The translations under genes were made by a program, and so were the position numbers. The notes below the pieces were generated by a model. That model saw only the letters and a program-made list of their open reading frames with translations. It ran no database searches and was not told the origin of the DNA. This document shows, piece by piece, positions 13,827 to 16,990 of a DNA stretch of 37,561 nucleotides (the first letter of the stretch is position 1; each line of letters starts with the position of its first letter). The DNA is from Promethearchaeota archaeon (GTDB taxonomy: Archaea > Asgardarchaeota > Lokiarchaeia > Sigyniarchaeales > SOKP01): positions 1-37,561 of the forward strand of contig JAGXNS010000015.1 in the NCBI GenBank assembly GCA_019894855.1. Reading direction: 5' to 3'.

Positions 13827-16010
13827 ATGGGAAAGCGTGGGTTACATAAACTAGTTGTTTTTTCAATTGTATTAGTGCTTATCATTCCAGTAATTACACT
13901 CTGGATGGATTTTGAAGGTCAATACACTAATGAAAAGGATATAATAGAAAATTTAAGCTCGTCAGACTCTCATCTTAGTGTAGGAAATTTGACATTACCA
14001 AAAATCGATTATGAGGCATTAAACGACGCGTGGATTAATCAAAAAATAGAAATGTTAATAATCGTAAACGATTCGAGCTTTGTGGATTCTGTTACGCCTT
14101 TGATGAATTGGAAAAACGAGAAAGGTGTCAAAACCATCATATTATATAACTATACGGAATATGAGGGAAGGGATAAGGCAGAACGGATCAGAAATATGAT
14201 AAAAGATTATTACGAGAAGGAGAATATTCAGTGGGTTCTTCTAGCGGGTGACGCAGAAGAAAACTTAATACCTATTAGAGAAGTATATAACCCAGATGTT
14301 GTTGTAGTGGGTGGAGAATCAGAATATTCAACTTGGGACAATTATGACAAACCCACTGATTATTATTATGCAGATTTAACAGGATCTTGGGATAGTAATA
14401 ATAATAACATTTGGGGCGAATCTCCTATTTATACGGGAGATCACGACGAGATTTCATGGATCCCAGAAGTGTATGTTGGTAGATTCCCAGCTGATAACGC
14501 GTTTGAACTCTCTGTGATGGTAAATAAAACATTGAAATACGAAACTGATCCTTTTATTGGAAACTGGATGAACAGAATGTTATTAGCGGGAGGAGTTTCA
14601 AGCTATTACCAAGATAATTCTGACCCTAATGAAGTAATTACTGATGAAGATGAAGCTCGTCTTACAGAATACATTTGGCAAAATTACGTAATTTCAGAAA
14701 GTAAGTTTACCCATTTAACAAAAACTACCACTGATTTTTCGCCCAGTACTCCACCAACGCCAAATTCTCTTGATGCACTTACTGTAACAAGTTTTCGTAA
14801 TGAATTTAATTCCGGCTATTCTACAGTGATAATTGCTGGACATGGGGATCCAACTCAGATTAAAGATGCCAGTTTTCTGCCCTTTCCTTACAACTATTAC
14901 AATAACGGTGATGCTTCGTCGAGTAGCAATTTTAACATGTCCTCTTTGTTTTATTCCGATGTTTGTACAACATCCTCGTACGATAAGGGAGACAATAGCA
15001 TAGGAGAAATTCTTATTAACGAAGCTGACTCTGGAGCAATCGGATTTATTGGTGGGCTTCGCGTAACTTGGTATCTTCAGGATGATGATTATTTAGAAAA
15101 ACTTAACAGGGGCAATGCTAAATTATTTTGGGAAACATTTTTCGAAGAAAAAAAATTTCAACAAGGAAGAGCTTTGTATGATTCTAAGGTATCCTATATG
15201 AATAGCGATTATTTCGAAAGAGGAGCTGCTTCTATGATTTATGAATACCAACGCAAGAATTTATTAACTTACAATTTATTAGGTGATCCCGAATTAGATG
15301 TATACACCAAGATACCTAAGAAGGTATCTAATTATTTTAATGAGGATTTATACGAAGGACAATGCGTTTCATTTCAAGTTAAAGACGATCTGGGAAGAAT
15401 TATCTCAAGAGCAAGAATTCATTTGAAGGGTTCAAACGGAAAATACCGAACAATATACGCTGATATAAACGGTCATGTTGATTTCAGGTTACCTCTAGGA
15501 GCTCATGAGAATTATAGTGTAATAATTACGGGACACAACGTAATCCCTTCTTATCATAATTTTACCACTTTACCGGATACTGATAACCCGATTATTCTTG
15601 ATGCTCATCACAGTCCTCTTGCCCCAACAGTATCAGATAATATAGAGATTTCTATACTCACCAAAGATAATCATTCAGGAATTGAGAGCATCTTTATCAT
15701 TATTTCTGAATCCAATTTCAATGATTATTCAACCTATCGCCTTAGGAACGAAATTAACGAAAATAATGAACGATTTGATCTTATTCTAAACAAAGAAGAA
15801 CCGGGATCATATTCATATATTATTGTTGCTAGAGATTATTTAAATAAAACTAGCCTCTTATTCAGTGATGAATTTAATTTCGTAATACAAAAGCCATTTA
15901 CGGATGCAGTGCTAATTATTGCTTCTATATTAATCGTAGGATTGGTAAGTGTCTCATCGCTGATTATGTTAGTCCGATTGAATAAATATAACAAGAATCT
16001 TAAGAGATAG
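13827..16010 (+). CDS. Gingipain-like cysteine peptidase (family C25), membrane-anchored
   Basis: A 727-residue protein with a signal helix at residues 8-27 and a C-terminal membrane helix at about 693-717 followed by basic residues, so the catalytic part should face outside. The C25 core runs from about 70 to 500. It has VLLAGDAEENLIP, the Asp-rich TDYYYADL, EVYVGRFPA, the catalytic His in IIAGHGDP and the likely nucleophile in YSDVCTTSSYD, then LLGDPELDVY, the usual end of the domain. After it come two beta-sandwich modules, one with the carboxypeptidase regulatory pattern RARIHLKGSNGKYRTIYADI. Peptidase activity against extracellular protein is inferred from the intact His and Cys. It has the same anchor layout as the surface protein at 9693-11405. 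Confidence 0.82.
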   Translation: MGKRGLHKLVVFSIVLVLIIPVITLWMDFEGQYTNEKDIIENLSSSDSHLSVGNLTLPKIDYEALNDAWINQKIEMLIIVNDSSFVDSVTPLMNWKNEKGVKTIILYNYTEYEGRDKAERIRNMIKDYYEKENIQWVLLAGDAEENLIPIREVYNPDVVVVGGESEYSTWDNYDKPTDYYYADLTGSWDSNNNNIWGESPIYTGDHDEISWIPEVYVGRFPADNAFELSVMVNKTLKYETDPFIGNWMNRMLLAGGVSSYYQDNSDPNEVITDEDEARLTEYIWQNYVISESKFTHLTKTTTDFSPSTPPTPNSLDALTVTSFRNEFNSGYSTVIIAGHGDPTQIKDASFLPFPYNYYNNGDASSSSNFNMSSLFYSDVCTTSSYDKGDNSIGEILINEADSGAIGFIGGLRVTWYLQDDDYLEKLNRGNAKLFWETFFEEKKFQQGRALYDSKVSYMNSDYFERGAASMIYEYQRKNLLTYNLLGDPELDVYTKIPKKVSNYFNEDLYEGQCVSFQVKDDLGRIISRARIHLKGSNGKYRTIYADINGHVDFRLPLGAHENYSVIITGHNVIPSYHNFTTLPDTDNPIILDAHHSPLAPTVSDNIEISILTKDNHSGIESIFIIISESNFNDYSTYRLRNEINENNERFDLILNKEEPGSYSYIIVARDYLNKTSLLFSDEFNFVIQKPFTDAVLIIASILIVGLVSVSSLIMLVRLNKYNKNLKR

Positions 16011-16161
16011 GGAGAAAATTAACAACTCAATACAAAGCCTTTTAAGTTTAACGGTTTATTATGAAAAAGTTTAATTACTAGCTCGTACTATTCCAATTAC
16101 TTACAACCATATAAATGAAGCATTTTACGATAATATAGCCAAAGTTATAAAATGGTTGTTG

Positions 16162-16358
16162 GTGATAGTTTTAACCACATAATCTCGTAGCAATTAGCTA
16201 CAACGCCGGAAGTTAAACTGTTTTGCGTTGCAGATAGTACTGTAGTTGAAAATCTATGGGAACTTGCAAACTGTAGCTTCGGCTACGGTCATGGTAATAC
16301 AGGATAGTACCCGGTACCATCCGAACCCGGAATCGTAAATGTGGTTAATGATTATCAC
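16162..16358 (+). other. Precursor processing structure around the permuted 5S rRNA (outer stem plus BHB-like motif)
   Basis: The 5S unit is enclosed by perfect pairings: GUGAUA (16162-16167) with UAUCAC (16353-16358), and a 10-bp stem 16171-16180 with 16339-16348. Inside lies a hairpin GUAGC-AAUUA-GCUAC (16187-16201). Then a BHB-like joint: ACG (16203-16205) with CGU (16334-16336), CCGG (16206-16209) with CCGG (16327-16330), and bulges AAG (16210-16212) and AAU (16331-16333). The inner helix is short (GUU 16212-16214 with AAC 16324-16326), so it is a relaxed BHB. Joining 16332 to 16212 reproduces standard 5S sequence. Confidence 0.75.
16212..16332 (+). rRNA. Circularly permuted 5S rRNA (121 nt)
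   Basis: 5S domains are all present but in rotated order. Helix II 3' strand (16218-16226) comes first. Next is helix V (16228-16232 with 16265-16269), enclosing loop E (AGUA 16236-16239 opposite GGGAA 16258-16262) and helix IV (16242-16245 with 16254-16257) capped by GAAA. Next is helix I (16270-16277 with 16282-16289), closed by a UUCG loop that replaces the usual free 3' and 5' ends. Last are helix II 5' strand (16294-16302), helix III (16311-16314 with 16327-16330) and loop C with the conserved CAUCCGAAC. Gene ends therefore fall next to helix III. Ligating 16332 to 16212 gives CCGAACCCGGAAGUUAAAC, matching the archaeal consensus CCGAACACGGAAGUUAAGC. The mature form is probably circular. 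It stands alone between protein genes. Confidence 0.85.
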
Positions 16359-16360
16359 GG

Positions 16361-16375
16361 ATTTTGTTATTTTCT
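16361..16375 (+). terminator. T-rich terminator after the 5S gene
   Basis: A run ATTTTGTTATTTTCT immediately follows the outer processing stem. Archaeal RNA polymerase terminates at such T-rich tracts, so the precursor would end just after the stem. Confidence 0.5.
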
Positions 16376-16447
16376 TATAAATAATGTTTTTAAAGCTTAC
16401 TGTATAAGATATAATAAGAGTAGATTAACTCTAAGTTGAAAATTTAT

Positions 16448-16990
16448 ATGCCCGGAAAATTTGTAAAAGCATTAAAGACTATTGGAAGAAAATGGTTCAT
16501 TTTTCTTATCGTTGTGATCATAATCATATTTTTCTTCGAACAAATCGTAGCTATAATTATTACAATTATTACTATAATCTTATTTGGTATTTCCTATGTT
16601 CCCACTTTAATGTTTTCTAAGAAATTGAATAAATTTTTAAGTAATATCAATGTAATTGAAGATAAGAGTGTTGCGAGGAGCCTCAAACGTCCATTATCTC
16701 AAATACAAGAAAAAATGTACAAGTTATCAAAAGATCAAAATAAGAAGGATTCGCTGATAACTTTTTATAACGGACACTATACTTTTTATAACGAGAAAGT
16801 AATTAAAAAATTCAAGATTTTTTATAATAAAGGGCTCGGAGAAAAGGAAATCCTCGAACAGCTGAAAAACTTTGAGATTAAAACAAGAGCGGAAATTAAA
16901 GCAATCGAAGACACTTTAATAAATAACGATAGATTGGAAGGAAGAAAGGTATCAGTTAAAGAATATAGAGATAAAAAAAGGTATTCTTAG
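16448..16990 (+). CDS. Hypothetical membrane protein with cytoplasmic helical domain
   Basis: About 180 residues from ATG 16448; a TTG at 16436 would add four. One long hydrophobic stretch near residues 15-60, probably two adjacent membrane helices broken near FFFEQIV, is followed by a charged helical tail of about 120 residues. The tail contains a repeated TFYNGHYTFYNEK segment and GLGEKEILEQLKNFEIKTRAEI, which resembles a short winged-helix or helical bundle. No enzymatic motif is seen and I do not recognise the family. It lies 73 bases after the 5S precursor stem, and its stop is 16 bases from the convergent sensor gene. Confidence 0.6.
   Translation: MPGKFVKALKTIGRKWFIFLIVVIIIIFFFEQIVAIIITIITIILFGISYVPTLMFSKKLNKFLSNINVIEDKSVARSLKRPLSQIQEKMYKLSKDQNKKDSLITFYNGHYTFYNEKVIKKFKIFYNKGLGEKEILEQLKNFEIKTRAEIKAIEDTLINNDRLEGRKVSVKEYRDKKRYS

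Follow-up and report, generated by a model that had tools for sequence, protein, structure and literature searches.

Introduction

5S rRNA is a near-universal part of the ribosome and is normally linear with paired ends; the 5S genes of Halobacterium and Sulfolobus are conventional. Asgard archaea are the closest known relatives of eukaryotes. The bulge-helix-bulge (BHB) motif is the substrate of the tRNA-splicing endonuclease. The closest described system to the one reported here is the SRP RNA of Thermoproteus tenax and T. uzoniensis, a circular RNA made from a permuted gene, for which cleavage by the splicing endonuclease has been shown, RtcB has been proposed as the ligase and a BHB-intron-bearing ancestor has been suggested (PMC4731332). 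Permuted tRNA genes have also been described in archaea (PMC3218864); their transcripts are circularised and then cleaved to the standard form (PMC10085705). For 5S rRNA itself, permuted genes are on record from organelles (Valach et al. 2014, as cited in PMC10085705), and the introduction of that 2023 article lists permuted 5S rRNA with the organellar paper only. Motif-directed excision and circularisation also occur in the processing of archaeal 16S and 23S rRNAs (PMC12918454; PMC7758197), shown in pure cultures for these two rRNAs and not for 5S (PMC12918454), and circular RNAs with variable ends that arise from the 5S genes of Halobacterium and Sulfolobus have been suggested to be part of 5S degradation (PMC12558985). 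A literature search of mostly open-access journal articles, by phrase in full text and otherwise by title and abstract, listed no report of a permuted or circular 5S gene in an archaeal chromosome.

The gene described here lies in a 37,561-nt stretch of DNA (the window) from a draft genome of the phylum Asgardarchaeota (GTDB) or Promethearchaeota (NCBI), in which a first-pass annotation made from the letters alone had proposed a circularly permuted 5S rRNA gene. Like the Thermoproteus SRP RNA gene, it is permuted and missed by a standard search, has its ends moved beside a functional loop, carries a BHB between leader and trailer, and has an upstream TATA box, TATA-like in the present case (PMC4731332). 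The features that define that system recur at the 5S locus, namely fused conventional ends, a BHB whose predicted processing restores the RNA, and an encoded endonuclease and RtcB. The two differ in that the SRP RNA case was described in two species (PMC4731332), whereas the 5S rRNA, whose circular form is predicted here from gene sequences, is a core part of the ribosome and is permuted in 139 of 227 genomes of the phylum. With permuted tRNA genes the locus shares reversed halves and a predicted circular intermediate; tRNA circles are then opened to restore the standard form (PMC10085705), whereas the 5S circle is likely to remain closed. The organellar examples (Valach et al. 2014, via PMC10085705) have the same kind of permuted 5S order, but the present gene is chromosomal and archaeal and has splicing-type boundaries. 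The predicted excision and circularisation follow the logic of circular 16S and 23S rRNA processing, where permutation, if any, arises after transcription, whereas here it lies in the gene (PMC12918454), and the predicted product, a circular molecule with 5S sequence, has counterparts in the Halobacterium and Sulfolobus circles (PMC12558985). The proposed mechanism matches the one described for the Thermoproteus SRP RNA; what is new, as far as we searched, is that it concerns 5S rRNA, how widely it occurs and what it would mean for the ribosome.

Results and Discussion

Architecture of the permuted 5S rRNA gene

The region 16212-16332 of the window (all features are on the forward strand) holds a complete 5S rRNA with all five helices in the permuted order II3'-V-IV-V'-I-UUCG-I'-II5'-III, so that the encoded ends adjoin helix III and the TTCG at 16278-16281 links the conventional 3' and 5' ends. 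The 3' strand of helix II (16218-16226) pairs with its 5' strand (16294-16302) with one mismatch; helix V (16228-16232/16265-16269) encloses loop E and helix IV (16240-16245/16254-16259) within 16228-16269; and helix I is an 8-bp hairpin at 16270-16289, with its 3' strand at 16270-16277 and its 5' strand at 16282-16289. These helices are supported by covariation. Helix III (16311-16314/16327-16330) encloses loop C within 16311-16330. The first-pass placement and order of the five helices, including the joining of the 3' and 5' ends by a UUCG loop on an 8-bp helix I, held when the pairs were checked and when the arrangement was found to recur in related genomes. The mature RNA is predicted to be a 121-nt circle spanning 16212-16332, on the basis of HMM rotation, folds, covariation and a cut-and-join test. 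In energy folding, the locus region beat 200 of 200 shuffles (z -4.74) and the linear fold of the rotated 121-mer had a 5S-like shape; counting against the assignment, the lowest-energy structure of the 121-mer in circular mode differs from the 5S fold.

The draft assembly of the source genome (G000) comprises 170 contigs totalling 2.5 Mb and is 84% complete. The window also codes for an aIF2-gamma-like protein, and a signature pattern of helix I gave 41 matches in named GTDB r220 contigs, 38 titled Lokiarchaeota or Lokiarchaeia and 3 bacterial. Taken together, the aIF2-gamma-like gene and the 38 of 41 titles assign the locus to an archaeal chromosome; an archaeal contig with this gene and with Lokiarchaeal relatives also sets it apart from the organelle-encoded permuted 5S rRNAs. 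The identification of a circularly permuted chromosomal archaeal 5S gene at 16212-16332 is therefore supported. The 3 bacterial signature matches were rejected as permuted 5S genes, having no match to the precursor model R1 (described below) at E<=1. Directly upstream of the 5S locus, 13827-16010 encodes a large protein that contains a domain of peptidase family C25.

Detection by 5S models

The Rfam 5S model RF00001 gave no match in the whole window, nor in 16000-16500 at E<=1, with the sequence as encoded, a miss that had been anticipated and is expected from the permuted order. The sole cmscan match near the locus, to a plastid element and far under its cut-off, was regarded as chance. An HMM of the conventional gene was therefore built from 27 conventional Asgard 5S genes taken among the RF00001 matches. 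On the encoded order it returned two partial, swapped matches of 13.7 bits (model 4-50) and 12.5 bits (model 45-118); on the rotated locus it returned a single match of 37.9 bits (E 6e-12, model 4-118), the joint best score among the 121 rotations, in keeping with the prediction of the first-pass annotation that rotation would raise the score sharply. The search it had proposed for a conventional 5S gene elsewhere in G000 (84% complete) found none with RF00001 or with R3, a conventional-order model made from rotated plus conventional sequences, leaving the permuted locus as the sole 5S candidate; at this completeness a conventional copy could still lie in a gap, for G000 alone.

RF00001 returned 4 matches in the 65 family genomes. 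Those in G002 and G007 overlap the permuted locus; the two away from it were rejected by eye as conventional family 5S genes, G018:C68 (L001) being a bacterial and G042:C263 (L002) a plastid-like rRNA contaminant. A match in another family, G105:C310, was likewise judged a bacterial or plastid-like contaminant by eye. Phylum-wide, RF00001 had matches in 75 of 227 genomes (64 above the cut-off), which are partly contaminants or pieces of permuted genes.

Flanking sequences and the bulge-helix-bulge motif

A TATA-like box, TTATAAAA (16145-16152), precedes the leader helix by about 20 nt and is a likely promoter. In some family loci CTTATWAA-like blocks precede the leader cut by about 60-70 nt; in many others, the window locus included, the TATA scan chose another position. 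In the predicted fold the arms AACCACAT (16173-16180) and ATGTGGTT (16339-16346) pair to form a leader/trailer helix, and similar arms were found again by eye in many family loci. Between the 5' arm and the gene lies a small hairpin, GTAGC-aatta-GCTAC (16187-16201), which is predicted to be discarded and has similar counterparts, by eye, in many family leaders.

Next to the gene, leader and trailer combine into an outer helix and a 4-bp central helix, and each strand has a 3-nt bulge 3' of the central helix. This is the order of archaeal tRNA-intron motifs, in which the bulge also lies 3' of the central helix on each strand. The leader strand (16203-16212) comprises the outer ACG, the central CCGG (16206-16209) and the bulge AA^G with a predicted cut at 16211/16212; the trailer strand (16327-16336) comprises the central CCGG (16327-16330), the bulge AA^T (16331-16333) with a predicted cut at 16332/16333, and the outer CGT. 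Both strands are supported by covariation and motif tests. If both strands were cut between the second and third nucleotides of the bulge and the ends joined, the product would read CCCGGAA|GUUAAAC, which is the conventional 5S sequence, and the predicted cuts fall exactly at the gene ends, 16212 and 16332, that had been assigned before the motif was recognised. The BHB motif and the phylum-wide arrangement are additions to that earlier reading.

We scored this geometry with a strict test requiring a perfect 4-bp centre, at least 2 outer pairs and a join within one mismatch of a conventional 5S 9-mer, the loop C junction 9-mers being set by hand from conventional genes. The test covered 95 of 100 permuted loci; L046 and L180 (truncated at contig ends), L184 (a near copy of L187), L195 (another junction, scanned separately) and L201 (near a contig start) were left out, and L003 and L004 are duplicates of L056 and L055, respectively. 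The strict motif was present in 76 of the 95 loci (49 of 56 family loci and 27 of 39 others) as against 93 of 1900 flank-shuffled copies, or 88 of 1900 in a second run with other random shuffles, and was top-ranked in 70 of 95 versus 30 of 1900; with 3 outer pairs required the figures were 73 of 95 and 35 of 1900. One of the 76 passes, L178 with a 138-nt circle, looks spurious, and 19 loci fail. Allowing one mismatch in the motif raised the passes to 87 of 95, but the extra passes say little, as the null then rose to 613 of 1900. The window locus (L005; CCGG AA^G / CCGG AA^T) passes the strict test, its motif ranking first of 11 candidates with a 121-nt circle; counting against it, no inner helix follows the 3-nt bulge unless the bulge is taken as 2 nt. 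The register of the join varies among loci between GGAA|G and GGA|AG.

Covariation

Compensatory changes support both the 5S helices and the flanking pairing. In a MAFFT alignment of 11 family loci, which is the basis of R1 and covers helices I, II, IV and V plus the leader/trailer helices, 96.8% of 407 pair cells are standard, both sides changed in 17 of 37 pairs, and covariation scores 0.391, where shuffling gave a mean of 0.155. Helix III, which shares a strand with the BHB motif, was assessed on a separate alignment, where standard pairs fill 100% of the cells in 25 rows and 3 of 4 pairs show both-side changes. In a phylum-wide alignment of 54 rows, fitted to the model as the MAFFT alignment was not, 94.2% of cells are standard and 645 show double changes versus 187 after shuffling; in this same fitted alignment pairing amounts to 94% in the outer, 95% in the central and 84% in the inner leader/trailer helix, with many double changes in the outer and central ones. 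Rotated and conventional genes aligned together share their pairs (covariation 0.515 versus 0.188 shuffled), with pairing in helices II and IV reaching only 65-68% there.

Distribution in the family and the phylum

With the window DNA as query, matches were found in 54 of the 65 family genomes. R1, a covariance model of the precursor built from 11 sequences, detected the permuted gene in 57 of 65, the match in G028 being partial and at a contig end; the other 8, three of them at least 93% complete, had no permuted gene by R1 and no match to R3. The recurrence of one order in 57 of 65 genomes together with compensatory changes argues against a chance resemblance. Across the phylum, R1 found the gene in 109 of 227 genomes and R2, a model made from 54 matches aligned to R1, in 140. 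G211 (E 6e-4) and G215 (E 8e-5) were dropped from the latter, being weak matches in a family that has conventional genes, which left 138, and the addition of G028, found by R1 only, brought the combined count to 139 of 227 genomes in 22 of at least 28 families. The phylum searches used stricter filters, with which weak matches are lost. Such a spread, with covarying helices, indicates that the gene is neither an oddity nor a pseudogene.

Conventional genes scoring at least 54 bits with R3 occur in 59 genomes, all in families f3, f18, f26, f27 and f28. That count omits G118 (57.9 bits), since its R3 match spans two tandem permuted copies; these copies (L169, G118:C510) are adjacent and near a contig end. 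In the family of the window, R3 matched only pieces of permuted loci and the bacterial-type contaminant G018:C68. By subtraction, 29 genomes of the phylum, a few of them more than 90% complete, have neither kind of gene. Among single-contig assemblies, G029, G030, G072, G113, G114, G115 and G173 carry a permuted gene without a separate conventional one, and G151, G184 and G213 carry conventional genes without an R2 match.

Shifted junctions and additional inserts

The majority of loci join 3' of helix III. The family loci L032, L035, L036, L037 and L040 join in loop C (GGTC|CC) and give 121-nt circles; L055, from another genus of the family, also appears to join in loop C, and L195 (family f2) appears to join in loop B, on its 5' side. 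Scanned separately, L055 and L195 each yielded a 121-nt circle with their best motif, L055 failing the strict join test. These shifted permutation points obey the same cut-and-join rule; it is the BHB motif, not the position of the junction, that is conserved.

Inserts of 30-31 nt occur in loop C of 19 of 53 family loci. All 19 lie in a motif whose 4-bp centre pairs TCCG or TCTG with CGGG, and their removal gives ..GAA|CCC.., after which 17 of 19 circles measure 120-122 nt; the remaining two, L053 and L054, contain a further insert. Other inserts, about 30 nt long, are present in the helix IV loop of L024, L044 and L053 and in the helix I loop of L048, L049, L051 and L054. The inserts of permuted genes in loop C, helix IV and helix I could be retained expansions rather than introns; a retained expansion is described for the 5S rRNA of Halococcus (PMC7530397). 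A conventional 5S gene of family f28 (L211, G211:C15) has an insert after GGAAGTTAA, perhaps another intron.

Proposed processing and alternative explanations

It is proposed that a short precursor would be transcribed from the permuted gene and that its leader and trailer would pair to form the BHB. The tRNA-splicing endonuclease would cleave each 3-nt bulge between its second and third nucleotides, at 16211/16212 and 16332/16333, and RtcB would join the released ends into a 121-nt covalent circle, which would persist and be incorporated as 5S rRNA in the large ribosomal subunit. Two genes of the splicing-endonuclease family (PF01974) and one RtcB ligase gene are present in the source genome. 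We consider it very likely that the locus is the 5S gene of this organism and is processed by BHB cleavage and RtcB ligation to a 121-nt circle working in the large subunit, a reading drawn from sequence features: the permuted order, the covarying 5S structure, the motif, the exact join, the presence of the enzymes and no other detectable copy.

The first-pass annotation had left the product as either a 121-nt circle or an RNA nicked near helix III. The former is favoured, since both ends lie in a BHB motif whose standard cut and ligation restores the 5S sequence exactly. A transcript cut at the motif and left unligated would be a linear 5S rRNA nicked beside helix III, which helices II and III could hold together, and permuted organellar 5S rRNAs are on record (Valach et al. 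2014, as cited in PMC10085705); such a product is improbable, as unligated RNA has no need of the exact cut-and-join geometry seen in 76 of 95 loci, RtcB is encoded in the source genome, and RtcB, recruited by the endonuclease, ligates the tRNA and closes the intron into a circle (PMC4731332). Somewhat less improbable, though still unlikely, is that the circle is an intermediate whose helix I loop is later cut, yielding a 5S rRNA with conventional ends, the course taken by permuted tRNA transcripts (PMC10085705). Of 54 aligned rows, 32 resolve to a 4-nt loop at this place and 22 do not; a UNCG tetraloop is present in 25 of the 54, and GNRA in none of the 32. A stable UNCG loop on a covarying stem suggests that helix I is kept closed and fits retention better than re-opening. 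We hold it to be very nearly out of the question that the locus is a decayed or misassembled copy with the working gene elsewhere: the source assembly is a draft in 170 contigs and 84% complete, which would leave room for such a gene, but the permuted gene recurs in 57 of 65 family genomes with compensatory changes throughout, and in the single-contig chromosomes G029 and G030 the permuted locus is the only one found with the Asgard 5S model.

Evolution of the permuted gene

For most Asgard archaea, it is probable that the normal 5S rRNA is a closed circle made by the tRNA-splicing machinery, and that the permutation occurred early in the phylum, its probable source being a 5S gene that was tandem or carried an intron. 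The junction would since have moved to at least three places and further splicing-type introns would have been added, while five families, without the permutation, keep the conventional gene. If so, a lineage near the origin of eukaryotes makes ribosomes with an endless 5S rRNA and depends on tRNA-splicing enzymes to do so. The permuted order would also explain why standard software frequently fails to find 5S rRNA in Asgard archaea; 5S genes could not be predicted in circular Heimdallarchaeum genomes (PMC8813620).

A conventional-order 5S gene (L206, G077:C117; also L227) is interrupted by a splicing-type insert at precisely the permutation junction and could show the ancestral form. It was not used as an evolutionary intermediate, because it is found at full length in no other of the 227 genomes and permuted copies are present in G077 as well; its contig, on which RNA polymerase genes are also found, is perhaps from another archaeon. 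In G151, an order-mate of the source genome in family f3 assembled as a single contig of 4,361,485 bases without an R2 match, three apparently identical conventional 5S genes (L207) stand in tandem, 374-375 bp apart, and tandem copies of this type are natural raw material for permutation.
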